Source: a virus. From it: a stretch of DNA of 64,000 bases. The number at the start of each line of letters is the position of its first letter. Within the stretch, counting starts at the first letter, position 1. The stretch covers positions 39,589 through 103,588 of the IMG/VR virus record IMGVR_UViG_3300035117_000094. One strand, given 5' to 3'. A program made the translations under genes and the position numbers. Below are positions 21,272 to 48,750 of the stretch, in pieces. The notes beneath the pieces are model-generated. The model ran no database searches, was not told the DNA's origin, and was given only the letters and a program-made list of their open reading frames with translations.

Positions 21272-21318
21272 GGGAATAAGCGCAACGTGCCTTGCGTTAC
21301 ACGTGAAGACCGGGCCGG
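21272..21318 (+). repeat. Duplicated tRNA leader, copy B
   Basis: GGGAATAAG, then CGCAACGTGCCTTGCG and ACACGT, ending in GAAGACCGGGCCGG as in copy A. The distance from GGGAATA to GAAGACC is 33 nt here and 32 nt in copy A. Confidence 0.6.
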
Positions 21319-21409
21319 TAGCTCAGCGGATCAGAGCAGCAGTGGCCACTGTGGCGATTCGTCGTCATGACAAGAGAGCAGGACGCGGGTTCGAGTCCCG
21401 CCCGGCCCG
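21312..21409 (+). tRNA. tRNA-like element 3 with expanded anticodon region
   Basis: The acceptor GGGCCGG/CCGGCCC is perfect (7 bp). TA at 8-9, D stem GCTC/GAGC and T arm GCGGG-TTCGAGT-CCCGC are all canonical. Between D and T arms are 47 nt instead of ~23, starting with the palindrome CAGTGGCCACTG (21340-21351), and no 5-bp/7-nt anticodon arm is found. It could contain an insertion or a long variable arm, or be a degenerate tRNA. No identity is assigned. Confidence 0.5.
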
Positions 21410-21412
21410 GTC

Positions 21413-32160: not shown

Positions 32161-35100
32161 TTAGCCCCCGGTGGCGAAGAACGCGTGCCGGGTACCCGAG
32201 GCGAGGCTGCCGTTGATCACGGTGCCAAGGGCGTGAGGCTGCTGCTGCATCAGCCTGACGAGCTGCTGGAGGAGCTGGATGAGCAGCGTGCCCTGAACCT
32301 GGGTTACCGGCTGGGACTGCGGGCCGCTGACAGCGCTGTCAGCCGGGGCCAGCAGCGGGTTGAGGGAGTTCGCGCCGAAGCTGAACACGGAACCCGCCAG
32401 CAGCGCGCTCAGCGTCTGCGAGGCACCGGTAGTGCGCAGGGAGCTGACTGAGCCGCCGCCCTGTAGGCCGGGCACGCCCGCGCGCTTGGCCATGTCCTTG
32501 AACGCGGGCGCGTGGCTCGTCGGGATCACCAGCTCTCCCGGTGCCAGGGCGCGCAGCGTGGAGTCCTGCCCGGACGGCCCGCTGCCGCGCACGATGTAGG
32601 CGCCCGCTGCGTGATGGGGGAACAGGCCCGGCGCCGACACGCCCGGGATAGGCCCCTGCACGGTGCCGGGGATGCTTATCATCTCCTGGATGCGCACCGT
32701 GTAAGTCTGGGCCGTGAGCGCCTGGATGGCTGCCGCTGCGGCATCGGCCTTCTGCTGGAGCTGGTCTAGCTGGGCGTTGACTGCCGCGAGGGCGCCCGGG
32801 GCCACGCCGAGCTTCTGGAGCAGCGCGTCCGTCATCGCCTTGGCCTGGTCAGTGCCGATGCCCGCCGACACCATCGCCTGGTAGTACTGCCCTGCCAGCG
32901 TGGTCGCCAGCCCGGTCAGCTTGCCGTGCGTCTTGCCCAGCGTGTTGATCAGGTTGTTCTGGATCGCGTTGAACCGGCTGCTGGACAGGATCGCCTGCGC
33001 CTGTGACTGGGTGACGTCCTGCACCAGGGCGTTGCCGAGGTTCCTGGCCGCCTTGGACAGCTCGGCGGCGGTCCGGGCGAGGGCCTGCTGCTGCTTGTCC
33101 AGGTCAGCGGTAGCGTTCTTCGCGTTGCCGACCCACTTGGCCAGCGCGGCGAAGCTGTTGGCGCCACGGTACCCGGCCACCTGGGCAAGCCCGTACAGTG
33201 ACGTGGTCGCGTGAGCCGACCCCTTGGCGAACGGCAGCAGCGTGGCGATGATGTCGCGGCCGGCCTGGTTCAGGTGCTGCTGCGAGGCAGCGGTGTTCCC
33301 CGAGGCCGCCGCCAGCATCTGGAGGCTGCCGTACAGGGTGCCGGCGGCGGTTATCTGGGAGGTGAACGCCTGCCGGACTGCCAGGGCCGCCTGCGAGGTG
33401 CCGTTCATGGCCGCGCCGGTAGCGTCGTACTTCTGCTTCAGGCCGCCGACCTTGACGGTGAAGTTCGTGGCGGAGTTAGCGCCGTTCTTCAGCGTGTCGG
33501 CCAGCGTCTGGTTGCCCTGGATGAACGCAGTGAACGCCGCCTCGCCGCCCGTGATGATGCCGAGCCAGTTCTGCTCGGCGGACGTGAGCGTCTGCACGGC
33601 CTGCGCGGTGGTCCCGGTGGAGATGTTCAGCGTGTCAAGCTGGTTGCCCAGGGTGCCCGCCTGCTGGCCGATGAACCCGTAGGCCGCCGCCGTCGCCAGG
33701 AGCTTCTGCTGGTCCAGCGCCCACGCCTGCGCGTTGGCCGTCGCGATGTCGCCCTGCTTCACCCCGGCCAGGTTGAACAGCTGGAGCAGGCTGGCGGTGT
33801 CCCCGTAGGACTTGCCGAGGGAGTTCAGCCGCAGCGCGGCGGTGGCCGACTGGTCAGCGTACTGCTGGAGGGCCGCCGTGTTCGCCTGGATCTGGCCCTT
33901 CTGCTGGCCGATGGCGTGCGAGACGCCAGCCGAGGTGTAGCGGTTGCTGTCACGGGTGAGCTGCGTGATGGCTACCCGCTCGCCCTGGATAGCCGCCGTG
34001 GTGGCCTTCATGGCGGCGGCGACGCTGAACTGCACGTTGATGATGCTCGACGCCGATATAGTCTTCTCCAGCTGCGCGTTCAGCTGCGCGGCGGCGTCCG
34101 TGGAACTCCTGAACGCGAGGAACAGCACCCCGCCGATGGCCACGGCGGCGACGCCCGCCGCAAGCCCGGCCGGCCCGAACGGGATGGCGCCGAGGGCGTC
34201 CCGGAATACGGCGGTGGCGCCTGCGGCGACGCCCTCGGCCTTGGTGATGTAGAGGATGTCAGCGCCCCACGCGACGGCGGCCTTGCCCGCGCTGACCAGT
34301 GCCCCGGCCGCGCTGCCGACAGCGGCGCCCCACGCGGAGATCTTCCCGCTGGTGGCCACGGCTGCCTCGCCAGCCGCCACGGCACGGAACGCCGTCACCG
34401 CCGCGCGGCTGAACGTGCCGAGGATGGTGGCGGCCAGGCCCAGGTAGAAGATGGCGCCGTGAATGGCCAGGAACTTGGCGATGATCGGCTGCGCGGCCTG
34501 GATGACGTCAGCCGAGACGGTCAGCGCGGCAGTGCCCAGCTTCAGCAGGATCTCCGCGTACCCGGGCACGGACTTCAGCAGCGTGTTAACGATGCGGCCT
34601 ACCTGCTGGAAGGACTGCCCGAGCAGGTTGATGTCGCCGGCTGCCTTGTTCAGGAACGTGCCGCCCGTATTGGAGTTGAGCGCTACGACGGCCTTGGCCG
34701 CGAAGTTGTCCAGCACGCCGCCGATGTTCTTCAGCACGGTCGCGAAGTGACTGCCCTTGTTGCTGCTGATCGTCAGCCAGTCGCCCCAGAGCTGGAGCGC
34801 CTGCGGCTTGACTGCTACTGACAGCTTGTTCATGCCCGCGTTCACGTGGTCGAAGCTCTGCCCCGCTGCGGTAACTTCGGTGCGCACGTTCTTGAACTGC
34901 GCGTAAACGTCCCTGGCGATCGGGTACGCGGCTAGGCCGAACGCCGTGAGGCCGATGATGGCCGGACCCCAGACGGCGGTGAACTCAATGACGGCCTCGG
35001 CTACGAGGTGGAAGCCTGAGGCGGTGGTGATGAAGTTCTTGCCGAGGTTCGCCAGTCCCTTGTCCAGGATGTCCGCGTCCTTGGCGTACTGCATGGACGT

Positions 35101-35478
35101 GGCGAACAGCGGGATGTGCGTGTTCTGTATGGCGGCCAGCGCCCGGCCGAAGATGCCGAACCCCTTCGCCGCCCGCGTGGCGGAGGCGCCTGACTGGTCA
35201 GCGGCGCCGCTCAGGCCGTTGAGGGCGCTGGTGGCGTTACGGGCGGCGGCAGCCACGCCGGCCGTGCCGGAGGCGTTAGCGCTGACGTTGACCTTGCCGC
35301 CCTTGGCCAGCGCGTTAAGGGCCTTGATCTTGGCAGCGGCCCCGGCCGTGTTCGCGCCGATGTTGATGCTCGGGTTGATCCCCGTCAGCGCGGCCCGGAT
35401 CTTGGTGTTGGCCTGGCGCTCGAACTTGGTGGTGTCCGGGAGGATGGCTACGTAAGCCTCGCCGATGAGCCGTGGCAC
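32161..35478 (-). CDS. Tape measure protein
   Basis: 1105 aa; GTG 35478 follows AGGAGGATGCCCG. The start RLIGEAYVAILPDTTKFER and the coiled-coil N-terminus are typical of siphovirus tape measures. Three hydrophobic stretches occur (GPAIIGLTAFGLAAYPI, FYLGLAATILGTF and AGLAAGVAAVAIGGVLFLAF). Helical Ala/Gln-rich sequence makes up most of the rest, with an IPGVSAPGLFPHHAAGAYIV segment near the end. Length sets the tail length, here at roughly 160 nm by the usual 1.5 A per residue rule. It lies after the chaperone pair, as expected. Confidence 0.9.
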   Translation of the reverse strand: MPRLIGEAYVAILPDTTKFERQANTKIRAALTGINPSINIGANTAGAAAKIKALNALAKGGKVNVSANASGTAGVAAAARNATSALNGLSGAADQSGASATRAAKGFGIFGRALAAIQNTHIPLFATSMQYAKDADILDKGLANLGKNFITTASGFHLVAEAVIEFTAVWGPAIIGLTAFGLAAYPIARDVYAQFKNVRTEVTAAGQSFDHVNAGMNKLSVAVKPQALQLWGDWLTISSNKGSHFATVLKNIGGVLDNFAAKAVVALNSNTGGTFLNKAAGDINLLGQSFQQVGRIVNTLLKSVPGYAEILLKLGTAALTVSADVIQAAQPIIAKFLAIHGAIFYLGLAATILGTFSRAAVTAFRAVAAGEAAVATSGKISAWGAAVGSAAGALVSAGKAAVAWGADILYITKAEGVAAGATAVFRDALGAIPFGPAGLAAGVAAVAIGGVLFLAFRSSTDAAAQLNAQLEKTISASSIINVQFSVAAAMKATTAAIQGERVAITQLTRDSNRYTSAGVSHAIGQQKGQIQANTAALQQYADQSATAALRLNSLGKSYGDTASLLQLFNLAGVKQGDIATANAQAWALDQQKLLATAAAYGFIGQQAGTLGNQLDTLNISTGTTAQAVQTLTSAEQNWLGIITGGEAAFTAFIQGNQTLADTLKNGANSATNFTVKVGGLKQKYDATGAAMNGTSQAALAVRQAFTSQITAAGTLYGSLQMLAAASGNTAASQQHLNQAGRDIIATLLPFAKGSAHATTSLYGLAQVAGYRGANSFAALAKWVGNAKNATADLDKQQQALARTAAELSKAARNLGNALVQDVTQSQAQAILSSSRFNAIQNNLINTLGKTHGKLTGLATTLAGQYYQAMVSAGIGTDQAKAMTDALLQKLGVAPGALAAVNAQLDQLQQKADAAAAAIQALTAQTYTVRIQEMISIPGTVQGPIPGVSAPGLFPHHAAGAYIVRGSGPSGQDSTLRALAPGELVIPTSHAPAFKDMAKRAGVPGLQGGGSVSSLRTTGASQTLSALLAGSVFSFGANSLNPLLAPADSAVSGPQSQPVTQVQGTLLIQLLQQLVRLMQQQPHALGTVINGSLASGTRHAFFATGG

Positions 35479-36876: not shown

Positions 36877-37341
36877 TTAGGTGCCGGAGATGCCCGCTGC
36901 CGGGTACCGCTGGACCTGCGCTGCCGCGTTCCAGCTCGACTTCATCGTGACCGCGCTGGCCACGCCACCGGAGGCGGCGTAGTCAGGGAGGATCAAGCCG
37001 AAGAAGTACTCTCCGGAGCTGATCGTCGCGTTGCCGGGGCCGCCGTTCACGGCGACGAGCGTCGGGTACAGGTACATCGCCCGTGGCTGGCCGTCTACGG
37101 CTGCCTGGTACGTCTGGGCAGACGCGGTGTCCATGAACCCGGTGAAGTCGCCGCTCGCATCGGGCAGGCCGGCCACCCAGATGAGGTTGGTGTCGCCGAG
37201 GGCGGTCACGTCCACCTTGGCAACCGTGAAGTTTATTGTCCAGTCCGAGACGAAAGACATGGGCGTCGCCGGGTTGGCGCCGTTGTTCCATGGCTGGACG
37301 CTCAGGTAGACCATGCCGTTGCGACCGTGTATCCGGCCCAT
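36877..37341 (-). CDS. Major tail (tube) protein
   Basis: 154 aa from ATG 37341. Pattern: NGMVYLSVQPWNNGANPAT, SFVSDWTINFTVAKVDVTA, LGDTNLIWVAGLPDASGDF, then FTGFMDTASAQTYQAAVDG; this is typical of actinophage tail tube proteins (beta-barrel with a D-V-T-x-L-G-D motif). It has its own 137-bp upstream region and a terminator, consistent with high expression. Confidence 0.85.
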   Translation of the reverse strand: MGRIHGRNGMVYLSVQPWNNGANPATPMSFVSDWTINFTVAKVDVTALGDTNLIWVAGLPDASGDFTGFMDTASAQTYQAAVDGQPRAMYLYPTLVAVNGGPGNATISSGEYFFGLILPDYAASGGVASAVTMKSSWNAAAQVQRYPAAGISGT

Positions 37342-37478: not shown

Positions 37479-37826
37479 CTATACGGCAGCGCCCGCGCTG
37501 TCCACGGGTCCGAGGCCGCGCGCTATGATGGCCTGCACCAGGGCCTGCGCCGTGACCTCGTCAAGGGCGGCGAGGTACCCGTCAGGGTCGATGACGCCTG
37601 CTACCAGGTCCGCTTCAACGAGTGCCAGGTACACGTCAGCCTGCCACCCGGAGTAGCCGAACGGCCTCTTGGCGCTGAACTTCTCGCCCCGGCGCCACAG
37701 TGTGGCGAACAGCGCCCGCAAGTACGCGCCGACCGTCTCGCCATCGGACTCCCCCGTGACGGGCCGTCCTTCCGGGACGCGGATCCTCGCCGCCGCAGCG
37801 GCCCGCACCATCTCGTCGCTGATCAT
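37479..37826 (-). CDS. Hypothetical protein
   Basis: 115 aa from ATG 37826, overlapping the glycosyltransferase stop (ATGA). Helical: ISDEMVRAAAAARIRVPEG, GAYLRALFATLWRRGEKF, then YSGWQADVYLALVEADLV. Actinophages often carry a similar small protein near structural genes, without assigned role. The 137 bp after it form the leader of the major tail gene. Confidence 0.55.
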   Translation of the reverse strand: MISDEMVRAAAAARIRVPEGRPVTGESDGETVGAYLRALFATLWRRGEKFSAKRPFGYSGWQADVYLALVEADLVAGVIDPDGYLAALDEVTAQALVQAIIARGLGPVDSAGAAV

Positions 37827-39001
37827 ACGGTCAGCCCCGCGTCCTCTAGCCAGCCCATGATCTTCAGGGCGTTGTTGCCGAACGTGCGGTCCAGGATCTT
37901 CTCGCGTGCCTGCCGGGCGCGCTCCTCGCGCAGGGAGTCCAGCTTAGACCAGTGCCGGATCAGCTCCGCCGCCTCTTCCGGCGAGCTGAAAGTAGGCAGG
38001 ATCCCGTCGAACAGCTCGTCGCCCTCGCCGCGCGGGTCGCGGATGAAGAACGTGCCGCAGGCGGCCAGCTCGACTTCACGCGGACCCATGGACCAGCCCG
38101 CGTAGTCGGTGCCGTCCTCGCCCTCGCGCCGGTACAGGTTCAGGCTCGTCTTCGCGATCCGGTACTGGCGCGCGGTCTCCTCGTTGTCAACGCACAGCTC
38201 CGGGTGGTGCCCCATGTAGTCGAGGAGGTGCGCGTTGGCCGGCTCGGTGACGGCCTCACCCCAGCCGCCGCCGCCGATCGACCACCGGACGCCCGTTAGG
38301 TCCATCTGGCCGAAGAAGTCCCGGCGTGACTTGAACCCGGTGCCGATGAACGTGAAGTCGGACTCGTAAGGCTCGGAGCGCGCGAACTTGCGCTCGCGGT
38401 CCCCCAGTTGCGTGACCTCCGCGACGGTCACCGGGTAGTGGACCTCCGGGTCGTAGGCGTGCGGCAGGTAGTGCGTGCGAAGGCCGGCGGCCCGCCACGC
38501 CGCCAGGTTCACCGGGTCGTTGATGAGGTTGAGGTCCATGTGCGCGCCGATGGCCATCTGGCGCTCGTCCTCGTACGGGCTTTCGGTGTGGATCATGGCG
38601 AGCTTCATCCCGCGCGCCCGCAGCACCTCGAAGATCGCCTCGTCATAGAAGAACCCCGAGGTGAACACGATGACGTTCGGCCAGAACACGAAGGCGTCCT
38701 CGAAGATCTGCCGGGTGACGATCGTGGTGACCTGCTCGTCGGTGAGCGCCTTCTTGAACGGCTCCTGGCCGCACGCCTCGCAGGAGGGGAGCTTGCGCGA
38801 CCCGTCCCAGTCCTCCGGGTAGTCCTTCAGGTAGGTGTTGCCGTGGTACATCAGCCGGTGGTTCATGTTGAACGTGATCACCGGGTGCCCCAGCTTGCGG
38901 AACGCCTTCTCATAGCCACGCCAGACATCGTGGACGGAGAACTCGGGACCGGGGTGCGTCAGGAGGATGCGCAGGTGCTCAGGGTCATTGGCGAGGCTCA
39001 C
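37823..39001 (-). CDS. Glycosyltransferase, CgeB-like GT-B fold
   Basis: 392 aa from GTG 39001. The N-terminal half (LRILLTHPGPEFSVHDVWR, GYEKAFRKLGH) and the C-terminal domain (SLNLYRREGEDGTDYAG, MGPREVELAACGTFFIRDP, GDELFDGILPTFSSPEEAA) match CgeB/GT1-type transferases, where a G-P-R-x-x-E motif recurs. The start has no ribosome site but lies 7 nt after TAAACT, so it may use a leaderless mRNA. It is separated from the main sugar island by the connector and tail genes. It may glycosylate virion proteins. Confidence 0.75.
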   Translation of the reverse strand: MSLANDPEHLRILLTHPGPEFSVHDVWRGYEKAFRKLGHPVITFNMNHRLMYHGNTYLKDYPEDWDGSRKLPSCEACGQEPFKKALTDEQVTTIVTRQIFEDAFVFWPNVIVFTSGFFYDEAIFEVLRARGMKLAMIHTESPYEDERQMAIGAHMDLNLINDPVNLAAWRAAGLRTHYLPHAYDPEVHYPVTVAEVTQLGDRERKFARSEPYESDFTFIGTGFKSRRDFFGQMDLTGVRWSIGGGGWGEAVTEPANAHLLDYMGHHPELCVDNEETARQYRIAKTSLNLYRREGEDGTDYAGWSMGPREVELAACGTFFIRDPRGEGDELFDGILPTFSSPEEAAELIRHWSKLDSLREERARQAREKILDRTFGNNALKIMGWLEDAGLTV

Positions 39002-39008
39002 GACGGCA

Positions 39009-39014
39009 AGTTTA
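39009..39014 (-). promoter_or_regulatory. Candidate -10 box (TAAACT) for leaderless start at 39001
   Basis: On the minus strand: TAAACT, 7 nt (TGCCGTC), GTG. No Shine-Dalgarno is present. It lies in the 30-bp gap after the tail terminator gene. Confidence 0.5.
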
Positions 39015-39031
39015 CACGAGGCCGGGGGAGG

Positions 39032-39502
39032 CTAGACCAGGCCGATGGTGAAGTGGATCCGGGCGCCGAAGTACATGACGCCGTTGTAGTCGAGCGGCGC
39101 GTAGGAGTCCGCCGTGACCGGCTCGCACCACTGCACGACCCCGCCAAGGGTATCGTCCATCGCGACGGCCATCGGGATGCTCACCGTGACGCCGGGGATA
39201 AGCTCGTAGCCGAACCACTGGTCGAGGGTCTGCTGCACGGTATCGATGTCGGCGTTCCGGGCGATGGCCACCATCACGTCCAGGCTGAAGGACGACGCGG
39301 CGTAGGGACTGCGGGTGACCGGGTCCATGTACGCGCCGCCGAGGGTCTCCCCGTACTTCGCGAAGGTCCCGTGCGCGGGCAGCACCAGCGCCACGGGCGG
39401 GCTTATCTGGTCGGCGGGGTTACCCTCCGCCTGGATGGCCGGGAACGCGTTGGCCGCTATCTGCGCCGCCAGCGCCGTCCGCACTGCCCTCAGGCTTGCC
39501 AT
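39032..39502 (-). CDS. Tail terminator / tail completion protein
   Basis: 156 aa; ATG 39502 follows GGAGGTAGTCC. It starts SLRAVRTALAAQIAANAFP, then PPVALVLPAHGTFAKYGET, FSLDVMVAIARNADIDTVQ and FTIGLV at the end. This matches the small alpha/beta tail terminators that cap siphovirus tails, and the place between connector and major tail genes is as expected. It overlaps the end of the channel-like gene by 83 bp. Confidence 0.7.
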   Translation of the reverse strand: MASLRAVRTALAAQIAANAFPAIQAEGNPADQISPPVALVLPAHGTFAKYGETLGGAYMDPVTRSPYAASSFSLDVMVAIARNADIDTVQQTLDQWFGYELIPGVTVSIPMAVAMDDTLGGVVQWCEPVTADSYAPLDYNGVMYFGARIHFTIGLV

Positions 39503-39857
39503 GGACTACCTCCGTCAGGTGCTGCTTCAGTTCCTCGTGGCGCGTGTCAACGTGCGTGACCATGCTGGCCTTCAGCTCCTCGTGGCGCGCGTCCACGTGG
39601 CCGGCCGTCAGCTCCGTGGTGAAGAAGCTGAACACGGAGGCCAGCAGCGGCACCACGGTTACCATCATAGCGGCGATAAGCCAGTACCCCGCCGGGTTGT
39701 CCGGCAGCACGTCACAGCCGACCGTGGTCGAGGTGCCCAGGGCGCAGTACAGGCCCTTCCACACGGCGATGTGCTCAGACGCGCTGTACGCCAGCCCGAA
39801 CGCGACGTTCAGGGTCACGGTGGCGATCAGCACCCTGAATGCCCGCTTGTGCTGCAC
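39420..39857 (-). CDS. Potassium-channel-like two-TM membrane protein
   Basis: 145 aa from GTG 39857, 2 bp after the preceding stop. M1 is ~7-24 (FRVLIATVTLNVAFGLAY). A pore-helix and filter stretch follows at 33-52 (WKGLYCALGTSTTVGCDV, then LP), close to the WxxLYFxxxTxTTVGYGDxxP pattern of K+ channels. M2 is ~58-80 (YWLIAAMMVTVVPLLASVF). The filter reads TVGC-D instead of TVGYGD, so tyrosine is replaced and one glycine is missing. The C-tail has two copies of HVDxRHEELK, a likely coiled coil. It could be an ion channel, a holin-like protein or a non-conducting relative. Confidence 0.65.
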   Translation of the reverse strand: MQHKRAFRVLIATVTLNVAFGLAYSASEHIAVWKGLYCALGTSTTVGCDVLPDNPAGYWLIAAMMVTVVPLLASVFSFFTTELTAGHVDARHEELKASMVTHVDTRHEELKQHLTEVVHGKPEGSADGAGGADSGQRVPGHPGGG

Positions 39858-39859
39858 GG

Positions 39860-40906
39860 CTACCCCGCCACCTTCCAGCTCACGGCCCACGCTTCCTCGG
39901 TGGTGCCCTCGTACGGCAGTTCCTGGCCCCAGGATATGACCCGGCGGCCAGGCAGGGATACTGCCGCGTGCGGGCCGAGCGGCGCCCGGAAGCCGATGAC
40001 GTGGCCGGGCACGAGGCCGAGCGCCGCCGGCACGCGCGTTACCCCGGCGACCCGGACCGGGTGGCCCGCGACGGCGAGCACGTCCCCCAGGACCGCGAGT
40101 CCCTGCGGTATCGTCGCCCCGGGGCCGCACGCCCGCTCCAGCCGGCGGAACATCAGCGGGGGCACGCGGTAGCCGGTGTGCAGCAGCATCGCGTTGGCCA
40201 CGGCCACGGGCACGCAGTTCGCGTCCTCCGGCCGGCCGAGCCACGGCCCCTGGTCCTTTCCCGTCGCGACGAGGGAGGACGGGGCCTGCCGCCCGGCCGG
40301 GGCCTTCCTTGCCGCCGCCAGCCCCGCCGCTACCACCGAAGCCTGCTGCGCGGCGGTGAACTTCGACCTGTTCCGGCCACTGCCGGGGCTGGCCTGCACG
40401 GACCTGCTCGCCTTGCCGGCCGCCCGCCGCGCGTGCGCGAACACCTGCTTCTCGTGGGCCACGGCCTGCGACTGGGTGACGGTGCGGAGCACGGCTTTCG
40501 TCACGTACTTCCGCTCGCCCGCCTGCGCGAACTGGAGGCGCCCGAGGATCTTCGCGTGCCGGAAGTAGTCTGCCTTGATCCGGTTCTGGAGGCTGGCGTT
40601 CTGGTGGCCGCGCACGCTCTGGAGGTAGGACTGCTTGACCGCGAACGCGGCGACGGCTGCCGTCTGGGCTGAGTGGTAGACGGCGTTGTACTTCTTCGCC
40701 GTGGAGTAAGCGGCGGCCAGCCGCGACCTGCGGAAGCCCGAGGCAGCGCGCGAGATCGCGATCTGCCTGCTCTTGGCCGCCGCGCCGGCGCGGTACGCCT
40801 TCCACTGGGCCGCGCTGAGCTGGAGTCCACGGGCTGTCTTCTTCCCGGTCTTGGACCCGGCCGGCCGGCCGCGCTTGCCCTTCGGTGCCTTGCTCGCGGC
40901 AGCCAC
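39860..40906 (-). CDS. Head/tail-region protein with C-terminal papain-like (C39-type) domain
   Basis: 348 aa from GTG 40906. Residues 1-~190 are very basic and helical (KAPKGKRGRPAGSKTGKK, SAAQWKAYRAGAAAKSRQI). Residues ~215-348 look like a cysteine-peptidase fold: EDANCVPVAVANAMLLHTG (candidate Cys), MFRRLERACGPGATIPQGL, GHVIGFRAPLGPHAAVSLP (candidate His) and RRVISWGQELPYEG. This resembles C39/bacteriocin-processing-type domains. It could be a virion-ejected or maturation enzyme. The activity is inferred from two residues only. Confidence 0.55.
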   Translation of the reverse strand: MAAASKAPKGKRGRPAGSKTGKKTARGLQLSAAQWKAYRAGAAAKSRQIAISRAASGFRRSRLAAAYSTAKKYNAVYHSAQTAAVAAFAVKQSYLQSVRGHQNASLQNRIKADYFRHAKILGRLQFAQAGERKYVTKAVLRTVTQSQAVAHEKQVFAHARRAAGKASRSVQASPGSGRNRSKFTAAQQASVVAAGLAAARKAPAGRQAPSSLVATGKDQGPWLGRPEDANCVPVAVANAMLLHTGYRVPPLMFRRLERACGPGATIPQGLAVLGDVLAVAGHPVRVAGVTRVPAALGLVPGHVIGFRAPLGPHAAVSLPGRRVISWGQELPYEGTTEEAWAVSWKVAG

Positions 40907-40907
40907 G

Positions 40908-41930
40908 CTACACCCCGGCTTTGCGCCTCATATTGACGTAGTCCTTCATCAGCTCGACGACCCACGGGTTCGACTGGACCTTGACGATGCCCAGGTCGGA
41001 GACGCCGGCGACGCCCCACGGCGCGTCCTTGCTTTTATACAGGTCCACCGCCAGCAGCATTGCCGCCTGCGAGATCGCCGGGGGAACCGAGTTCCAGCCC
41101 CACGTGCCGGTTACCTGCACGCGGTTCAGGTAGGTGTACGGCCAGATCCACGGCAGCCAGCCGCCGCCCGGGATGGCAGACACGCCGGCTACCCCGGTAA
41201 GCACCTGAAGCTGCCGGTAAGGGCGCGGGACGCCGGCGGCGTTGATGTTGTAGTTGTCCTCGCTGTTGCCCATGCCGCCGAGCTTGAGCTGGTAGTTGAC
41301 CCCGAGCGCCCAGGACACGTCATAGACGCCGTTGCCGTTGTAGTCGAGGTTTACCTGCGTACCGGACACCACCGCCGGGTCGGATACCAGGTCGTCCAGC
41401 GGGCACCCCCAGACGCTCTCCGGGATGAACGTCCGGGCCTCGTGCAGCCGGTAGAAGTGACGACCGCAGTAGTTGTTGACCCAGTTGGCGACTACCTGGA
41501 TGGCGAGCTGCGCCTCGTAGTCGTAGCGGTTGTCACTGATGTTCAGCCGGTGCTTCAGCTCGTCGAGGCCGGTATACCAGAACTGCGCGCCCGTGCCCAC
41601 GTCGGACAGGGGGATCAGCCGGAAGGTGCCGGGCGTGACCTGCTGGACGCCGTTGCCGGTGCCGACCCACGTGAAGCTGTACAGCCCGGAGACGGTCAGG
41701 CCGTCCACGGTCAGGGCGTAGTTGCCGGCCGACTCCTTCTCGACGTGCCCGATACCCGTGTTCGAGGGGTTATACACGTAGCTCGTGATCGTGCCCGCAG
41801 GGTCCGTCACCACGCACGTGATCGAGCTGGGGTCGGCCAGCTGGCCGGTGGTCGCGTCCACGAAGGCCACGGGCGTCACCGCCGCTGCCTCGCTGGGGCT
41901 GGAGTAGTAAATCTGCACTCCGCTGCTCAC
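40908..41930 (-). CDS. Head-tail connector (adaptor) with N-terminal Ig-like domain
   Basis: 340 aa from GTG 41930. The first ~105 residues are a beta-sandwich (VTPVAFVDATTGQLADPSS, GNYALTVDGLTVSGLYSFT). Helices then follow, with LDELKHRLNISDNRYDYEA, QLAIQVVANWVNNYCGRHF and PPAISQAAMLLAVDLYKSK, as in gp6-type adaptors that join portal to tail. The insert of ~120 residues between helices is beta-rich and carries RTFIPESVWGCPLDDLV. The N-terminal domain is an unusual addition. Confidence 0.7.
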   Translation of the reverse strand: MSSGVQIYYSSPSEAAAVTPVAFVDATTGQLADPSSITCVVTDPAGTITSYVYNPSNTGIGHVEKESAGNYALTVDGLTVSGLYSFTWVGTGNGVQQVTPGTFRLIPLSDVGTGAQFWYTGLDELKHRLNISDNRYDYEAQLAIQVVANWVNNYCGRHFYRLHEARTFIPESVWGCPLDDLVSDPAVVSGTQVNLDYNGNGVYDVSWALGVNYQLKLGGMGNSEDNYNINAAGVPRPYRQLQVLTGVAGVSAIPGGGWLPWIWPYTYLNRVQVTGTWGWNSVPPAISQAAMLLAVDLYKSKDAPWGVAGVSDLGIVKVQSNPWVVELMKDYVNMRRKAGV

Positions 41931-41951
41931 CTGGCCACCTCCGGTTCAATG

Positions 41952-42053
41952 CTATCTAGCGCCGGAGGCCGCCGCCACCCGCAGTGACGACGGCCTCGCG
42001 ACGAGATGTAACCGGACCACCTCCCGGATCGCAGTGCTACCGTTCACCAGCAC
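41952..42053 (-). CDS. Possible 33-aa mini-protein
   Basis: An open frame from GTG 42053 (GGGGAGGTG upstream) to TAG encodes VLVNGSTAIREVVRLHLVA and a basic end. It is short, and the 5' site is ambiguous. It fills the gap between the sugar island and the connector gene; otherwise this 150-bp stretch shows no feature. Confidence 0.3.
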   Translation of the reverse strand: MLVNGSTAIREVVRLHLVARPSSLRVAAASGAR

Positions 42054-42087
42054 CACCTCCCCGGGAGAAGAAGATCCTGTCCTCAGG

Positions 42088-42303
42088 CTATCCGGTACCC
42101 TCCGGGTTCCGCCAGATCATCTTGGCCTGCGTGAAGGCGTACCCGGCCGCCGCGCTGCCGAACGGGCTGCTGACCGCTTCGAGGATGCCACTGACGGCGA
42201 GCCTCGTGGACCCGTGCGTCTCTGTCCTGACGACGTTGCTGAACACCGCCATCTCGTCCTCGGTCAGGGTCGTGGTCTCCAGGTCGTAGGTGAACGCCCT
42301 CAT
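42088..42303 (-). CDS. Small hypothetical protein
   Basis: 71 aa from ATG 42303, overlapping the preceding stop as ATGA. It contains FTYDLETTTLTEDEMAVFS and FGSAAAGYAFTQAKMIWRN. Co-translation with the papain-like gene is likely. No family is recognised. Confidence 0.6.
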   Translation of the reverse strand: MRAFTYDLETTTLTEDEMAVFSNVVRTETHGSTRLAVSGILEAVSSPFGSAAAGYAFTQAKMIWRNPEGTG

Positions 42304-43001
42304 TGCCGGGACGCCGCCGTGGCCTGCCGTAGCCGGTGGTCTTCCAGGTACAGGTCCATGGGCATGACGTAACCGGGCCACCGGCCGTCGTTGAATACGT
42401 GCAGGTCCCGCCGCTCGTACGAGGCGTCCGCAAGCTGAGAGCAGATGACGTGCCCCTGGTCCTCGATGAAGCCCTTCAGCCCTGGTGCCGGGACGTGCAG
42501 GCGGTGCAGCGCGAGCGCCTCGTAGTCGAGGAAGGCGTAGCCTACGCCCTCGAACTCACGGGCAGCGTCGGCTACCCCGGTCAGCTCGTACGCCGTGAAC
42601 TTGGAGGCGATGCCGTAGCACCAGTAGACGGACGGGTACTTGCTGACGTTCACGATCTCCGCGCCGCCCGGCTCCGCCTCGATGCAGGTGCCCTCGGTGT
42701 CCAGGGCGACGAGGGCGTGCTCGTAGCGGGGCAGGTCGTTCCTGCGCAGCCAGCGGTCCATAGGCGTTTCCGCCAGGTACTGGCCGAGGTGGATGAGGCG
42801 GCCTACCTCGCCGCCGATCTCCGTTAGCCCGATAAGCCCCGGGGCGGGCGCCTCGCCGAAGAGGCCGTTGCTGGGGGGTGCCATGGCATCCAGGGTACGC
42901 GGTGCGGCCTTAGCCCACTTCGGCGGCAGCTCGGGCACGGAGTGGATTCCGTGCCAGGGCACCCGGCGGTCGTCGTCGTCGTCGTCGTCTTGTTCGCTCA
43001 T
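42300..43001 (-). CDS. Permuted papain-like hydrolase (YiiX/NlpC-P60 type)
   Basis: 233 aa from ATG 43001. An acidic start (SEQDDDDDDDRR) precedes the enzyme-like part: RYEHALVALDTEG (His), CIEAEPGGAEIVNVSKYP (Glu-Ala), GVGYAFLDYEALALHRL and GHVICSQLADASYERR (Cys). This H...E...C order is that of the circularly permuted NlpC/P60 fold. Related proteins cut amide or thioester bonds in peptidoglycan or lipids. It stands among sugar-modifying genes and may act on the cell envelope or on a virion modification. Confidence 0.55.
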   Translation of the reverse strand: MSEQDDDDDDDRRVPWHGIHSVPELPPKWAKAAPRTLDAMAPPSNGLFGEAPAPGLIGLTEIGGEVGRLIHLGQYLAETPMDRWLRRNDLPRYEHALVALDTEGTCIEAEPGGAEIVNVSKYPSVYWCYGIASKFTAYELTGVADAAREFEGVGYAFLDYEALALHRLHVPAPGLKGFIEDQGHVICSQLADASYERRDLHVFNDGRWPGYVMPMDLYLEDHRLRQATAASRQ

Positions 43002-43016
43002 GCCCTGTGCAACGCG

Positions 43017-43583
43017 CTAGAAGGCTGGTTTCATCCAGGCGCCGCGCGGTGCGTCCCACTCATCGACTACCGGTATCCACCGCGTCATGTCCGTGGTCTC
43101 CCAGCCGCCGCCGGCCAGGATCGCGCCGGGCTTCATCGCGGCCATGATCTTGCGCTCCAGCTCGGCTTCCAGGTGAACGTCCCGGAACGGCATGTACAGC
43201 CAGATGATGTCGTAGCTGCCGTAGTCCTCGAAGTCCAGGGCGTCCTTCGCGAATACGGTGGAGTGCGCGCTGGCCACTCGCGCCATGGCCAGGTCCACCT
43301 CGATGCCGGCTACGTCCAGCCCGAATATCTCGCGGGCAAGCGTGCCCTTGGTGGCCGGCCCGCAGCCCACGTCGAGGAACCTGGCGCCGTTCGCCTCCGC
43401 GACGACCTCGGCCATGATAGACATGAACTCGCCTACCTGGAACGGCATCCACGGCGTGTACACGGGGTCTTGCCGGTTGCTGCCGTGGGACTTGTACAGG
43501 TGCTCCGTCTGCATGGCGTTTCGCAGGGCAGTCTGGACGTGCCCTGCGCGCCAGCTAGCGGCGTCACTCGTGCTGGGGATCAT
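43017..43583 (-). CDS. Class I SAM-dependent methyltransferase
   Basis: 188 aa from ATG 43583. Motif I is FLDVGCGPATKGTLA, motif II IEVDLA, and the post-motif region SYDIIWLYMPFRDVHLEA. It begins with a region typical of sugar- or small-molecule methyltransferases (LYKSHGSNRQDPVYTPWMP). It overlaps the upstream small gene by 20 bp. It is one of four methyltransferase-type genes in this part of the genome, probably modifying sugars. Confidence 0.8.
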   Translation of the reverse strand: MIPSTSDAASWRAGHVQTALRNAMQTEHLYKSHGSNRQDPVYTPWMPFQVGEFMSIMAEVVAEANGARFLDVGCGPATKGTLAREIFGLDVAGIEVDLAMARVASAHSTVFAKDALDFEDYGSYDIIWLYMPFRDVHLEAELERKIMAAMKPGAILAGGGWETTDMTRWIPVVDEWDAPRGAWMKPAF

Positions 43584-43791
43584 GCTGGCTCTCCGGGGGG
43601 TCTGGGGGCAGGGCAGTCGGGCGGGTAACGGCGGCCATGGCCGCGCACCAGTGACGACGCGTCTCCGGGGGCAGGTCACGCCATTTCGGCATGGGGCCGT
43701 CCCAGTGGTCCTTCCACCCGGCATCCTCACCATAGCCGTCGTAGGCGCGGTGAGCCAGCCCGGAGATCACGTCGTCCCAGGTGCGCGGCAT
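43564..43791 (-). CDS. Small hypothetical protein
   Basis: 75 aa from ATG 43791. It contains RTWDDVISGLAHRAYDGYG, WDGPMPKWRDLPPETRRHW and a proline-rich end. Its W-x(2)-LPPETR(R)HW segment recalls short actinophage proteins of unknown role. Confidence 0.55.
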   Translation of the reverse strand: MPRTWDDVISGLAHRAYDGYGEDAGWKDHWDGPMPKWRDLPPETRRHWCAAMAAVTRPTALPPDPPESQHDPQHE

Positions 43792-43793
43792 GG

Positions 43794-43976
43794 CTATTCC
43801 GGGTCCGGCCAGAACTTCAGGCTCGGGTCGGCGGTGATGCGGGTGCCAGCCAGGGCGGACGGCATGACCTCATCAGGCAGGGCGTCCTCGCCGGGCACGA
43901 AGTCCGACAAGCGGTCACCGCCACGGAGTTCGATTGGCCGGACGGGGAATTCCGGCTCGGTAGCGTCAGCTTCCAT
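43794..43976 (-). CDS. Small acidic protein
   Basis: 60 aa; ATG 43976 follows GAGGAGAACCTG, a strong ribosome site. Sequence ADATEPEFPVRPIELRGGD then LPDEVMPSALAGTRITADP. Probably unstructured. Function unknown. Confidence 0.55.
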   Translation of the reverse strand: MEADATEPEFPVRPIELRGGDRLSDFVPGEDALPDEVMPSALAGTRITADPSLKFWPDPE

Positions 43977-44029
43977 CAGGTTCTCCTCTCGCGTCAGGGT
44001 CACCCTACCACCTGCGCGCCGTGCGGGGA

Positions 44030-44656
44030 CTACGGGCAGGCGTAGGTGAAGGAGGGCCACACGTCGATGGTCACCTCTTCCACCCGGGCGAACTTAACGC
44101 CGGCCCGCAGCCACGCGCTGACGATCTCCCAGTCCTCGGTAGCGGACGGCGGACCCCAGGTGGCCACGCTTTCCAGCTCGCGCCTGTGCAGGATCATGGG
44201 CGTCCCGATATTGCAGGAGGCCGGGTACTGCCCTGTCCCCACGATGGACTCGCCGGGGACCGGGTGCTCGTAAGTCATCATCCAGGAGTACGCGAACCCC
44301 GCTTCCGGCTCGGCTTCCAGCGCGGCGGCCAGGAGGCTCACGTGGCGGGGCCGCAGGGCGTCGTCGCTGTCCACGTACCCGATCAGCTCCCCGGCAGCGT
44401 GCGCCAGCCCTTCCCTGCGGCCCGGGCCGCCCCAGTGGCGCTCCGGGTCGTGCTCCGGCAGCTCGAAGTACCGGACGGGGTGCCGCAGGCCGCCCAGCGC
44501 GTCCACGGCCTCGCGCAGCACGGGGTCAGGGCCGTCACTGACGATGACGTGCTCGACGGCCGGGTACTCCTGCGCCTGCACGCTGGGAACGCACCGGCCC
44601 AGCAGCAGCTCGTGGCGCCCCCAGGCAGGCGTGATAACGGTGACCAGCGGCGTCAT
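44030..44656 (-). CDS. Family-2 (GT-A) glycosyltransferase
   Basis: 208 aa from ATG 44656 (GGAGGGTTCGCTGAC upstream). Pattern: PLVTVITPAWGRHELLLGR, HVIVSDGPD, then GELIGYVDSDDALRPRHVS (the DxD-type DSDD) and a C-terminal ATEDWEIVSAWLRAG, where ED(W) would be the base. It is short but complete for a GT2 catalytic domain. It lies next to the epimerase and probably uses the sugar nucleotide made by the island or by the host. Confidence 0.85.
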   Translation of the reverse strand: MTPLVTVITPAWGRHELLLGRCVPSVQAQEYPAVEHVIVSDGPDPVLREAVDALGGLRHPVRYFELPEHDPERHWGGPGRREGLAHAAGELIGYVDSDDALRPRHVSLLAAALEAEPEAGFAYSWMMTYEHPVPGESIVGTGQYPASCNIGTPMILHRRELESVATWGPPSATEDWEIVSAWLRAGVKFARVEEVTIDVWPSFTYACP

Positions 44657-44657
44657 G

Positions 44658-45560
44658 TCAGCGAACCCTCCTGGCGCGCAGGGCGCGGTCGATGCCCTCT
44701 TCCAGTGATACCCTCGGCTCGTAGAACTCTCGCAGCAGCGACGGGTCGCACACCCGGTACGCCGCGCCCTCCGGGGTGCCGGGCACCAGGCGGATAGCCG
44801 GGCTGTAGCCTGCGGCGCTCGTCACCATGACCGCCAGCTCCCGCATCGTCACCGCGCGGCCCGTGCCCAGGTTCACTGGCCCGTCCATGCCGAGGTTAAC
44901 CATGCCGTAAGACGCCCTGACGATGTCCTCGATGTGGATGAAGTCCCGTGCCTGCTCGCCCGATCCCCAGACGTCGAAGGGGTCCTCGCGGCTGGCAGCC
45001 CGCGCGATGAAGGCCGGGAACGGGTAGCTGGGGTCCTGGTCGGTACCGTAGCCGGAAAATGGCCTGACCACCGTGACGTTCAGGCCCTCCTGCCGCGCCC
45101 GGTACGCCAGGTTCTCCCCCGTCAGCTTGGTCCAGCCGTAAAGCTGGTCGGGAACGCCGGCTACGGGGCCTGCGAATGACGGGTCGATGAAGTCCTCGTA
45201 CAGCCTCTGCCGGGCGGTCTGGCGCTGGAAGTGGAGCGGGTAGGCGGCCGAGCTGGAGAAGTACAGGATCCGGCCGGGGCGGTTGCGCAGCGCCCACTGG
45301 AACAGGCCCGCGTCCAGCTCCAGGTTGGAGGCCAGCGCCAGCGGCGCCCCGTCGATGAGCTTCCGGCCGCCGACTATCGCGGCAGCGTGCACGACGAGGT
45401 CAAACTTGCCCGTGCTGCCGAGCCGGAAGAACTCGCGGGCGTCCTGGTCCGGGTGACGCCGGATATCCAGGGTCAGCAGCTCGAAGCCCCGGGCCGCCAG
45501 GTAGGCCGTGAAGTGCCTGCCGACGAACCCGGCGCTGCCGGTGATGAGGGCGCGCTTCAT
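44658..45560 (-). CDS. NAD-dependent sugar epimerase/dehydratase (extended SDR)
   Basis: 300 aa from ATG 45560. The cofactor motif is LITGSAGFVGRHF (GxxGxxG), the active site YGWTKLTGE (Y-x3-K) with SSSAAYPL before it, then RPFSGYGTDQDPSY and FIHIEDIVRASYG. These are typical of GalE/RmlB-like enzymes acting on nucleotide sugars. ATGA overlap with the preceding methyltransferase. Confidence 0.9.
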   Translation of the reverse strand: MKRALITGSAGFVGRHFTAYLAARGFELLTLDIRRHPDQDAREFFRLGSTGKFDLVVHAAAIVGGRKLIDGAPLALASNLELDAGLFQWALRNRPGRILYFSSSAAYPLHFQRQTARQRLYEDFIDPSFAGPVAGVPDQLYGWTKLTGENLAYRARQEGLNVTVVRPFSGYGTDQDPSYPFPAFIARAASREDPFDVWGSGEQARDFIHIEDIVRASYGMVNLGMDGPVNLGTGRAVTMRELAVMVTSAAGYSPAIRLVPGTPEGAAYRVCDPSLLREFYEPRVSLEEGIDRALRARRVR

Positions 45561-46156
45561 GCCCGCTCCGCCGCGATGACCTGGAACCCGGCCACCTGCT
45601 CGTGCCGGATGACGCGCCACCCGCCCTGCTCCAGCAGGTTCCGGTAGCCGGCCATGTCCCAGGCCCAGGCGTGGAACTCGTAGTGCGACCACAGGCTCTC
45701 GTTGGCCGGGGACGAGGCGACGAGGTAGCGCGTTTCCCGCGCCATGCGGGTGACGAACGCGTGCGGGTCCGTCAGGTGCTCCAGGATCTCCGTGACCACG
45801 GTGATGTCCCCGTACTCCGGGTTCCCGGTCACCACGTCCAGCACCCCGGCGGTCATCCCGCGCTCGCAGGCGCCCTCGACGGCGGCGTGGCACAGGTCAT
45901 AGCCCCAGCAGCGGGTCAGCCCGGCCGTGCAGTCTACGAGGGACATGAGGCCGCCGTCGCCGCAGCCGAAGTCGGACAGGGTACGGCAGCCGTTCGCTGC
46001 TGCCAGCATCCGGACGAACTCCGTCGCGAGGAACAGCCGGTCACGGTGGGCGGCCTGCTCCAGGTGAGGAGCGCGCTCGCGGCCCGCGTACCATTCCGCC
46101 GTGGTGAACTCGGGAACCGTCCCCTCGGGGAACAGCCGCCACTCAGTCATGCGCAT
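45557..46156 (-). CDS. SAM-dependent methyltransferase
   Basis: 199 aa from ATG 46156. Motif I is TLSDFGCGDGGLMSLV, followed by WGYDLCHAAVEGACERG and ITVVTEILEHLTDPHAFV (the EILEHL pattern of UbiE/CmoM-type enzymes). It belongs to the same sub-type as the next gene upstream, perhaps after duplication. Likely target: a sugar or glycan. Confidence 0.8.
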   Translation of the reverse strand: MRMTEWRLFPEGTVPEFTTAEWYAGRERAPHLEQAAHRDRLFLATEFVRMLAAANGCRTLSDFGCGDGGLMSLVDCTAGLTRCWGYDLCHAAVEGACERGMTAGVLDVVTGNPEYGDITVVTEILEHLTDPHAFVTRMARETRYLVASSPANESLWSHYEFHAWAWDMAGYRNLLEQGGWRVIRHEQVAGFQVIAAERA

Positions 46157-46695
46157 CTCCAGACCTGGAAGGTGTAGTAGGCGTTCGACTCCGCCGTGAA
46201 CAGCGTAACGTCACGGGCCGTCCAGCCGGCCGCCGCGAGCATGGCGTCCAGGTCGCTGGTGTCCCAGCCCCAGTAGTGCTGCGGGTTGCGGGCGTCAGAC
46301 TCGCCGCAGGGGGTGGTCAGCAGCAGGCGGCGGGCCTTGCCCCTGATCGCCCGCAGCAGGGCATCAGGGTCCTCGATGTGCTCCAGCGTCTCCGAGCACA
46401 CGAACACGTCCACCGGGGGGATCTCCTCGATGGTGCGCTCGATCGGCCCGGTGAAGTCCCGGCCGCCCGTGTAGTCGCCCAGGAACGCGATGTCGCTGAG
46501 CTGGGCCATGCCGACGACGGCCCCGTCACCACAGCTCAGGTCGGCCACGTTATGAGGGGACATCGCGCGCAGGAGCCGGGCCGTGTACGCCACCCGCTCG
46601 ACGTGATCAGGCCAGTCGGTGTGGTCGTAAGGCCGGGCGTACACCTGCGCTAGCTGCGCCGGGCTGTGGAACGGCCGGAGCTGGACCCTGGTCAC
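46147..46695 (-). CDS. SAM-dependent methyltransferase
   Basis: 182 aa from GTG 46695 (GTGA overlap). Motif I is NVADLSCGDGAVVGMAQL, then VDVFVCSETLEHIEDPDAL and RRLLLTTPCGESDARNPQH. It shares the CGDG and E(T/I)LEH(I/L) patterns with the neighbour at 45557. It overlaps it by 10 bp. Confidence 0.8.
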   Translation of the reverse strand: MTRVQLRPFHSPAQLAQVYARPYDHTDWPDHVERVAYTARLLRAMSPHNVADLSCGDGAVVGMAQLSDIAFLGDYTGGRDFTGPIERTIEEIPPVDVFVCSETLEHIEDPDALLRAIRGKARRLLLTTPCGESDARNPQHYWGWDTSDLDAMLAAAGWTARDVTLFTAESNAYYTFQVWRCA

Positions 46696-47375
46696 AGGCC
46701 GAGCGCCTTCCTGAGCCGGGCCAGCTCGCCGGGCCACTCGTCCGCCACGTACTGCGCGTAGCGCCGTCCGTCCAGCGCGTACTGCGCGCCGTTGTTGGCG
46801 CTGGCGTACGTCTCGTCCCACGCGGCCTGGCCCACAGTGGGGTGCATGTGCTCGATGATCACGTCGTCCTGGTAGGCCAGGTTGCCGACGCCCTCGCCCA
46901 GCTTCTTCCAGAAGTCGTCCAGGTACAGGTGCTCCAGGGCGGCCGGGACTAGGTAGCCGAGGGCCAGGATGATGTCCGAGGACATCACGACCGCCGTGGG
47001 CAGCTCGGCTCCCTTGATCAGGTCGTTCCCGTAGGCGACGCCCGGCTTGCCGTCGAGGGCCGCGATCAGCTTCTCGTCCCAGCCGGGCGTGCGGGGCAGG
47101 TGGTCGTCGCCCATGAACCCGGTGTGCGTGCTGAACAGGGCTTCCTTCGGCGCGTAGTGGTTCAGGATCGGCCCGATGCGCCGCAGCCCGGGGGCCACGA
47201 CCTCCAGGGGCCAGCCAAGCGCGAGCGCGGCGTACTCCTCGCGGGCCGGGTCGTCATGGTCCACGAGGAACACGAGGTGGGTGTCCGTTGACGAGGCCGT
47301 GTCGAGCGCTGCCTCGGCTAGCCGCGTAGCGTTCCCGGGCCGGCCACGCGTGGGCACCATTATCGTCAGGCTCAC
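46692..47375 (-). CDS. Glycosyltransferase, GT-A type
   Basis: 227 aa from GTG 47375. It starts SLTIMVPTRGRPGNATRLA, with VFLVDHDDPAREEYAALA, RIGPILNHYAPKEALFS and FMGDDHLPRTPGWDEKLIA, where GDD(H) is the metal-binding position. The C-terminal VVMSSDIILALGYLVPAAL and YQDDVIIEHMHPTVG fit phage GT-A enzymes. GTGA overlap with the downstream methyltransferase. Confidence 0.75.
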   Translation of the reverse strand: MSLTIMVPTRGRPGNATRLAEAALDTASSTDTHLVFLVDHDDPAREEYAALALGWPLEVVAPGLRRIGPILNHYAPKEALFSTHTGFMGDDHLPRTPGWDEKLIAALDGKPGVAYGNDLIKGAELPTAVVMSSDIILALGYLVPAALEHLYLDDFWKKLGEGVGNLAYQDDVIIEHMHPTVGQAAWDETYASANNGAQYALDGRRYAQYVADEWPGELARLRKALGL

Positions 47376-47680
47376 CGGATCTCCTCGGGGGGAAGCTCAG
47401 TCAGGGCCATGGTGACGGGCTGGGCAAGCGCTACGCCCCGGTGCTCGGCGCCCGCGCCGTCCCGGACGGTTATCATGCGCCGCGCGCCGTCAACAGGCAG
47501 GTACGAGTGCACGGTGACGTCCGCCCGGCCGTCCTCGTAGCGACGGAACTCTGCCTTGAACACGTACTTCAGCGGCCTGCCATCCGGGGCAAGGAACCGC
47601 TCGCACCACGCGGTCAGCTCACGCGATGGCAGCGCGCCCGCGCTGATGTCGAAGCCGAAGGTCTCGGCTACTCCATTCAT
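47372..47680 (-). CDS. Small hypothetical protein
   Basis: 102 aa; ATG 47680 follows GGGAGGAAAGGC. It has KYVFKAEFRRYEDGRADVT and VHSYLPVDGARRMITVRDG, a beta-rich pattern. It lies between two glycosyltransferases with ATGA and GTGA overlaps. No family is recognised. Confidence 0.55.
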   Translation of the reverse strand: MNGVAETFGFDISAGALPSRELTAWCERFLAPDGRPLKYVFKAEFRRYEDGRADVTVHSYLPVDGARRMITVRDGAGAEHRGVALAQPVTMALTELPPEEIR

Positions 47681-48750
47681 GCCTTTCCTCCCTGGAACTG
47701 CCATCCTACGGGGAACAGCGCCTTGTACGTGTCCTCCCATTCCCGCCAGTGGCCCTCGATCGTGTTAGCGCGGGCCGTCTCCAGCGCGGCGGCCTTCATG
47801 CTGAAGCGAAGTTCATCATCGCCGGCCAGCAGGCTCAGGTAATTAAGCCACTCATGCTCCCGCTTAACCAGGAAGCCGTTCTCGCCGTGGCGGATGAAGC
47901 GCCTGTACGGCTCCACGTCGCTCGCGATGACGACGGCGCCGCGCGCCATGTACTCCAGCGCCTTGACGGGGGACTTGGCCCGGTTGAACTCCGTGCCGGC
48001 CAGCGGGGCGATGCCGATGTCGAAGTCGATCGCGCGGTAGTAGAGCTTCGGCCGCATGCACACCGGCAGCCACGGGACGTGGAAGGTCCGGTCGAACGGC
48101 GTCCCGGCCTCGCGGCGGAAGTCCACGCCGTTCACCCAGCAGTGCCACTGCGGGAACCGCTTCATGAACCGCGCCAGCGAGTTGCCGGGCACCGCCAGGT
48201 CCTTCTTGTGCGAGCTGCCGCCGGCCCAGCCGACCCTGGGGTGGCCCTGCCGGTCGTCGCTGGCCAGTCCCAGCACCCACTCCGGGATGTAGTTGGGCAG
48301 CACCGTGACGGGCACGTGCGGGGACATCTCGCGGTGCAGGTCGCCGAGGTACGGCGTCGTCACGGTGATCAGCGAGGCCGTGTCGCAGTACCGCTGGACC
48401 GCCTCGCGGATGTCGCCGCCCTCCTCGTAATGCTTGTACGCCGGGTTGCTGGGGTCGATGTGCCACACGTCGTCGTCGTTCTCGTACACCGTGCGCCGCT
48501 GCGGCGTGACCATCCGCCGCCACATGCCCAGCCCCTTGTAGCTGTTGACCCGCTGGGCGAGGAAGACGTCCGCCCCCTCGGCCTGGCCCGGGGAAGTCAG
48601 CAGCGGGTCGCCGGTTATCTCGTCACCGGCCAGGGCTGAGCAGAACGAGACGCTGGTATCCTCGCTGTGCTCGTTAACGGCCTTCAGCGGGACGTAGACA
48701 CGGTACCAGGTGCACCCGGAGCCGCCGTCGTGGGCCGCAAGGATCTTCAC
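47677..48750 (-). CDS. GT-B glycosyltransferase (GT4-like)
   Basis: 357 aa from ATG 48750. N-terminal domain MKILAAHDGGSGCTWYRVY and RRTVYENDDDVWHID; C-terminal domain PRVGWAGGSSHKKDL, FDIGIAPLAGTEFNRAKSP, VKALEYMARGAVVIASDVE (E-x7-E-type motif) and NGFLVK. This is the first gene of the minus-strand sugar island; a TAGCAT hexamer lies 12 nt upstream. Confidence 0.85.
   Translation of the reverse strand: MKILAAHDGGSGCTWYRVYVPLKAVNEHSEDTSVSFCSALAGDEITGDPLLTSPGQAEGADVFLAQRVNSYKGLGMWRRMVTPQRRTVYENDDDVWHIDPSNPAYKHYEEGGDIREAVQRYCDTASLITVTTPYLGDLHREMSPHVPVTVLPNYIPEWVLGLASDDRQGHPRVGWAGGSSHKKDLAVPGNSLARFMKRFPQWHCWVNGVDFRREAGTPFDRTFHVPWLPVCMRPKLYYRAIDFDIGIAPLAGTEFNRAKSPVKALEYMARGAVVIASDVEPYRRFIRHGENGFLVKREHEWLNYLSLLAGDDELRFSMKAAALETARANTIEGHWREWEDTYKALFPVGWQFQGGKA

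Follow-up and report, generated by a model that had tools for sequence, protein, structure and literature searches.

Phage channels of the P-loop superfamily with a shortened, cysteine-containing filter of the AMPA-receptor type

Glutamate receptors are thought to be descended from K+-channel-like pores, and the intermediates GluR0 and AvGluR1 keep K+ filters (PMC12332018). A glutamate-receptor filter has been placed in a two-helix pore by engineering: in NaK C-DI, the DGNF of NaK is replaced by the C-DI of the AMPA receptor, with monovalent ions bound at S3/S4 and Ca2+ bound below the filter, in the vestibule and at the mouth Asp (PMC9976283). In KcsA, Y78 is a hub that joins the filter to the pore helix of the adjacent subunit via W68, T72 and the E71 carbonyl (PMC9250420); E71 also coordinates the backbone of Y78, and with a small residue at the E71 position the cavity that backs the filter becomes larger (PMC6328603). 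K+-channel-domain proteins have been annotated in Streptomyces, Acinetobacter, Lactobacillus and Pseudomonas phages and also occur as BFVD entries, and a literature search, with most subscription journals outside its coverage, returned nothing on phage ion channels and no paper containing TVGCD.

The window (the whole stretch analysed, 64,000 nucleotides) comprises bases 39589-103588 of a 103.6 kb IMG/VR virus record with 69% GC. A sequence-only reading had proposed a 145-residue K+-channel-like protein among structural genes in this window; the open reading frame is present, on the minus strand, which that reading omitted, and its surroundings are indeed those of a siphophage structural cassette, which also includes a protease.
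39420..39857, minus strand: channel gene, 145 aa, GTG start (open reading frame and relatives)
39860..40906, minus strand: upstream gene, 348 aa, function unassigned
39032..39502, minus strand: downstream tail-terminator gene (phrog_17840, E 4.1e-9)
40908-41930: head-tail adaptor
36877-37341: major tail protein
32161-35478: tape measure
51414-52787: capsid
54563-56200: portal
57923-59659: TerL

The GTG start of the channel gene sits 2 nt past the stop of the upstream gene. The order of channel then tail terminator recurs in four related loci (L058-L061), where the slot before the tail terminator holds a canonical TVGYGD form, and in three of these (L058, L059 and L060) a gene similar to the upstream 348-aa gene lies ahead of both the channel and its partner gene, which is described below. 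Because the closest TerL relatives are found in actinophages (Rhodococcus, Arthrobacter and Mycobacterium phages, at about 30% identity), the host is likely actinobacterial. Elsewhere in the window, several glycosyltransferase-like genes and a nucleotide-sugar epimerase-like gene lie among the head and tail genes (37823-48750, minus strand), and ARAGORN predicted a tRNA-like gene whose anticodon appears to have four bases (agga; 20991-21063, plus strand), adjoining a tRNA-Gln at 21311-21410.

The M1-pore-M2 layout was borne out by an AlphaFold2 monomer prediction from a 27-sequence alignment, which places helices at residues 2-28, 32-43 and 55-119 with core pLDDT > 90. This is the predicted fold of a K+-channel pore, with a pore helix and filter loop set between two membrane helices. 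Residues 33-48 read WKGLYCALGTSTTVGC.
39774..39854, minus strand: M1 helix, residues 2-28 (AlphaFold2 helix, pLDDT 88-95)
39729..39764, minus strand: pore helix, residues 32-43 (AlphaFold2 helix, pLDDT > 90)
39711..39728, minus strand: selectivity filter TTVGC-D, residues 44-49 (motif as in engineered NaK C-DI)
39714-39716, minus strand: C48, at the KcsA Y78 position, the next residue (G79) being deleted
39501..39695, minus strand: M2 running into a long C-terminal helix, residues 55-119 (AlphaFold2; P70 invariant in the family)
39570..39599, minus strand: repeat 1, HVDARHEELK, residues 87-96
39525..39554, minus strand: repeat 2, HVDTRHEELK, residues 102-111
39420..39502, minus strand: low-confidence C-tail, sharing 83 nt with the start of the tail-terminator gene

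The altered filter seen in the sequence-only reading is real: the K+ channel signature (TxGYG/TVGYGD) is absent, and relative to TVGYGD the filter codons (ACC ACG GTC GGC TGT GAC GTG) represent an in-frame change that leaves M2 intact, with no frameshift. The two repeats, with a period of 15 residues (starts at 87 and 102), fall within one long predicted helix that could serve assembly, as had been suggested.

Foldseek searches of the PDB returned the C-DI and S-DI mutants of NaK as the first matches, followed by other NaK structures, KcsA, MthK and AMPA receptors, all with probability 1.00 and a best E of 1.8e-3. In a viral structure library the top matches were K+-channel-domain proteins of giant viruses and of an uncultured Caudovirales phage, with holins far below them in score. 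The phage K+-channel-domain family phrog_14690 matches residues 8-94 at E 4.2e-5. Against Pfam Ion_trans_2 (cut-off 22.5 bits) the window protein scores 15.6 bits; canonical relatives with 36-38% identity exceed the cut-off at 36-40 bits, L041 and the cysteine-class channel L051 also exceed it, and E is 0.01 or lower for 19 of 27 family members. The family profile matches NaK C-DI at 1e-9 and KcsA at about 1e-7, and a member with a TTDGCD filter has the same predicted fold (pLDDT 94) and matches both. As the window protein lies under the Pfam cut-off and its Foldseek E is about 2e-3, the case for a channel rests on the family, whose place in the P-loop cation channel superfamily is secure.

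The family was assembled from one IMG/VR relative followed by motif scans, profile scans and a scan with one neighbouring gene as query, the last of which samples channels irrespective of filter type, and a hidden Markov model run over all open reading frames of the fetched loci yielded 37 distinct channels from phage contigs, the window's included. The TVGYGD filter is kept in 18 of the 37, with Phe or Trp in the pore helix (canonical class). Another 17 have a filter that is one residue shorter and contains Cys (cysteine class), and two belong to neither class.
TTVGCD: window, L016, L025, L026, L036
TSLGCD: L033
STVGCD: L051
STVGCN: L048, L052
ATAGCD: L037
TTAGCD: L096
TTDGCD: L047, L050, L082, L092
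TTDGCP: L042
TEGACT: L038
TTVGAD, shortened without Cys, pore-helix Tyr (neither class): L041:1264-1590
TTSGNSPAVP, pore-helix Tyr (neither class): L045:4375-4734

The filters of L041 and L045 are possibly intermediates or further selectivity types. The last filter Gly is kept in 37/37 channels and the Thr before it in 36/37, and the Val position, invariant in the 18 canonical members, is variable in the cysteine class (V in 8, D in 5, A in 2, E and L in one each). Conservation of TTVG, the lack of which among homologues the sequence-only reading would have taken as refutation, holds in only part of the cysteine class, with TTDG, TTAG, TSLG, STVG and VTEG elsewhere, which argues against K+ selectivity and not against the channel fold. 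The closest relatives, 47-55% identical to the window channel, share its pore helix and filter type (canonical relatives are 36-48% identical), and dN/dS in close cysteine-class pairs is 0.09-0.41, excluding the L052/L051 pair as an ungapped comparison across an indel; these pairs are under purifying selection. Given this sharing and the low dN/dS, the filter is more than a chance observation.

A scan for TxTTVGCD returned 28 stretches, of which only those in L016, L025, L026 and L028 were channels and the others were rejected as chance matches or unrelated frames. No relative was found in cellular genome contigs (genome_contigs), and the pattern Y-C-x2-G-x2-T-T-x-G-C had no match among 397 genomes from the phylum to which a Nocardioides MAG belongs; a cellular origin of the cysteine form was accordingly dropped. 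Searches of isolated phages and plasmids gave no close relative.

A column-by-column comparison identified two further positions that fully separate the classes, C38 and G41, which we take to be the equivalents of KcsA W68 and E71 from an alignment on TxTTVG to the KcsA sequence.
39744..39746, minus strand: C38, KcsA W68 position (Cys in 17/17 cysteine-class and 0/18 canonical members)
39735..39737, minus strand: G41, KcsA E71 position (Gly in 17/17 cysteine-class and 0/18 canonical members)

The KcsA contacts tie W68, E71, Y78 and G79 into one network, whose members differ together between the classes. In L038 the filter Cys lies one residue later, and the pore-helix Cys is still present.

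How often the cysteine class arose depends on the columns used. In a tree of all columns it forms one side of a branch, a grouping that is suspect since those columns contain the trait itself. With the pore columns removed, the class requires four changes and the hypothesis of a single clade fails (AU p = 0.0115); in 4/4 independent pairs the two Cys differ jointly. With M1 and M2 only, three changes are required and the two Cys are concordant in 3/3 independent pairs, three to four pairs being too few for significance. One clade for the class was thus abandoned once the pore columns were removed, with the qualification that M1 and M2 only do not reject it (p = 0.09). The C-tails of L051:4519-5100 and L048:4513-5091 are nearly identical and their pore domains clearly different, which suggests that pore modules have been exchanged between phages, and such segment exchange could mimic repeated gain of the cysteine form. 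There were probably two to four conversions. It is possible, though we consider it doubtful, that phages have repeatedly converted a minimal K+ channel into a cation channel of the AMPA-receptor type through a single coupled change (loss of one filter residue and replacement of Tyr by Cys, with Cys at the W68 position and Gly at the E71 position) and that the two Cys staple or redox-gate the filter, possibly across subunits. In KcsA the W68-Y78 contact spans two long side chains, and a pair of Cys might be too short to meet unless the backbone shifts.

From the computed fold, filter, coupled residues, purifying selection and late-cassette position, we infer with a probability of roughly two in three that the protein is a minimal two-helix P-loop cation channel, tetrameric, with weak selectivity, and made late to depolarise the host. 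The K+ filter TTVGYGD would have been rebuilt by deletion of one residue and replacement of Tyr by Cys, with C38 and G41 packing behind it, giving an AMPA-receptor-type filter (LG...GCD) in this phage and 16 relatives. Four subunits would form the pore, probably aided by the C-terminal helical repeats; in the family these recur every 11 or 15 residues, a spacing seen in right-handed coiled coils, which points to a tetramer. The pore may retain the inner S3/S4 ion sites below a wide outer vestibule and would pass monovalent cations with little selectivity, perhaps also Ca2+. Weak selectivity is suggested by the loss of the outer filter sites and the freely varying Val position, and by analogy with engineered NaK C-DI; the TTV part could retain a K+ preference. 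Made late beside head and tail proteins, the channel would depolarise the host membrane and thereby block superinfection or set the timing of lysis.

In relatives, the channel gene is usually preceded, often with an overlap of a few bases, by a gene for a conserved small membrane protein with a CH...C...C..H motif.
L025:1706-2095, minus strand: partner CHxxxC...C..H protein
L001:7630-7998, plus strand: partner CHxxxC...C..H protein
L036:5603-5992, plus strand: partner CHxxxC...C..H protein
About 20 further loci: partner CHxxxC...C..H protein

The partner has no Pfam or PHROG match, and its gene also occurs without a channel in a few bacterial MAG contigs. It perhaps binds zinc and is perhaps an accessory subunit of the channel. 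A search of the window phage's record, run without a positive control, found no partner gene. Two of the phages have a VIT-family gene (vacuolar iron/manganese transporter) close to the channel: L001 (8371-8826, plus strand; Pfam VIT1, E 1.2e-9) and L038 (4598-5059, plus strand; E 2.4e-4, below the cut-off).

Four rival explanations were weighed. The Cys and Gly changes might only repack the filter of a channel that remains K+-selective through the S3/S4 sites of its TTV part; TTV is retained in the window protein and in 8/17 cysteine-class members, and canonical relatives occupy the same locus, but the outer half of the K+ filter (Y78 and G79) is missing and the Val position is free where canonical members hold it invariant, making this unlikely. 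The description as K+-channel-like stands for the fold, and the shortened filter is better described as of the ionotropic glutamate receptor (iGluR) type, with GCD and a one-residue deletion; the channel reading is well supported and K+ selectivity is not. The fold might also have been kept as a membrane scaffold or sensor in a non-conducting descendant, with the filter changes marking lost conduction. The diversity of cysteine-class filters (TTDGCP, TEGACT) on a constant architecture fits such a loss, which we regard as quite improbable given the same coupled changes in 17 members, the retained filter Thr and Gly, and purifying selection.

A small two-helix membrane protein within a late cassette could be a holin or lysis-timing pore making lesions and not a selective pore; no Amidase_2 endolysin turned up in the record, nor could lysis genes be placed, the search outside the window covering Amidase_2 only. 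No holin match rose above noise, however (phrog_6116, E 1.1), holin structures score far below K+-channel proteins, and the pore helix, filter Gly and P70 conserved in 37 members would be unneeded by a lesion-former, so this explanation is improbable. A decayed pseudogene or sequencing artefact, which the deviation from the K+ signature might bring to mind, is hardly credible: it is contradicted by an intact frame, by matched pore-helix changes, by the low dN/dS of close pairs and by independent contigs, 47-55% identical, that carry the same type of filter.

As to novelty, which the sequence-only reading had tentatively suggested for a siphophage channel with a shortened filter, phage K+-channel-domain proteins were already annotated; what appears to be undescribed is the iGluR-type filter together with the pore-helix changes coupled to it, present in 17 channels from phage contigs and absent from the cellular genomes searched. 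Both filter types and two in-between forms (L041 and L045) occur within a single family of very small phage channels, in which two pore-helix positions change along with the filter, so that the transition becomes testable by swapping a few residues between the 18 canonical and the 17 cysteine-type members. The family also highlights phage proteins with a possible role in controlling the membrane potential of the host. Should phages have made this conversion repeatedly, the channels would provide a natural, stand-alone, ligand-free pore carrying the filter of glutamate receptors, and would illustrate how a K+ channel can give rise to that filter.

Among known channels, the algal-virus Kcv-type and giant-virus K+-channel-domain proteins are likewise minimal viral M1-P-M2 channels, but they have, according to published work, K+ filters, belong to eukaryotic viruses and are 9-18% identical in sequence to the phage channel. 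KcsA has the same M1-P-M2 fold with a C-terminal helix and differs in its TVGYGD filter, in W68 and E71 instead of C38 and G41, and in being K+-selective. The phage K+-channel-domain proteins (phrog_14690 and the canonical relatives) belong to the same family, in one branch in the same genomic slot, with TVGYGD and with Phe/Trp and Thr/Val in the pore helix.

With AMPA-type iGluRs (GluA2 M2 loop) the phage channel shares LG...GCD[I/V]xP, the deletion of one residue and a Gly where KcsA has E71. In an hhalign comparison (probability 60, E 8e-5; GluA2 letters checked against PDB chains), GLYCALGTSTTVGCDVLPDNPAG and GluA2 have in common the pore-helix Leu-Gly, GCD, Pro and the deletion. The GCD filter with one residue deleted relative to K+ channels, a mark of iGluRs, is thus found in the window protein. 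GluA2 has Phe where the phage has Cys and QQ where it has TV, the iGluR pore is inverted in the membrane relative to the phage channel, and the ligand-binding and M4 domains of iGluRs are absent from the phage channel, including the split ligand-binding domain, the 145-aa protein being a pore module and tail. The window protein had no match to Pfam Lig_chan (L051 scored 17.8 bits, under the cut-off of 30.8). The phage channel is not an iGluR, and the likeness of the filters is most simply convergent. The best match by sequence, profile and structure is to the NaK C-DI mutants (PDB 7OOR, 7PA0, 8AYP, 8AYQ), which share the two-TM pore and the filter TVGC-D[I/V]xP and differ in lacking the Cys and Gly changes in the pore helix and the long C-terminal repeat helix. 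NaK C-DI is engineered whereas the phage form is natural, and the cysteine-type phage channels are thus natural counterparts of a pore that had previously only been engineered.
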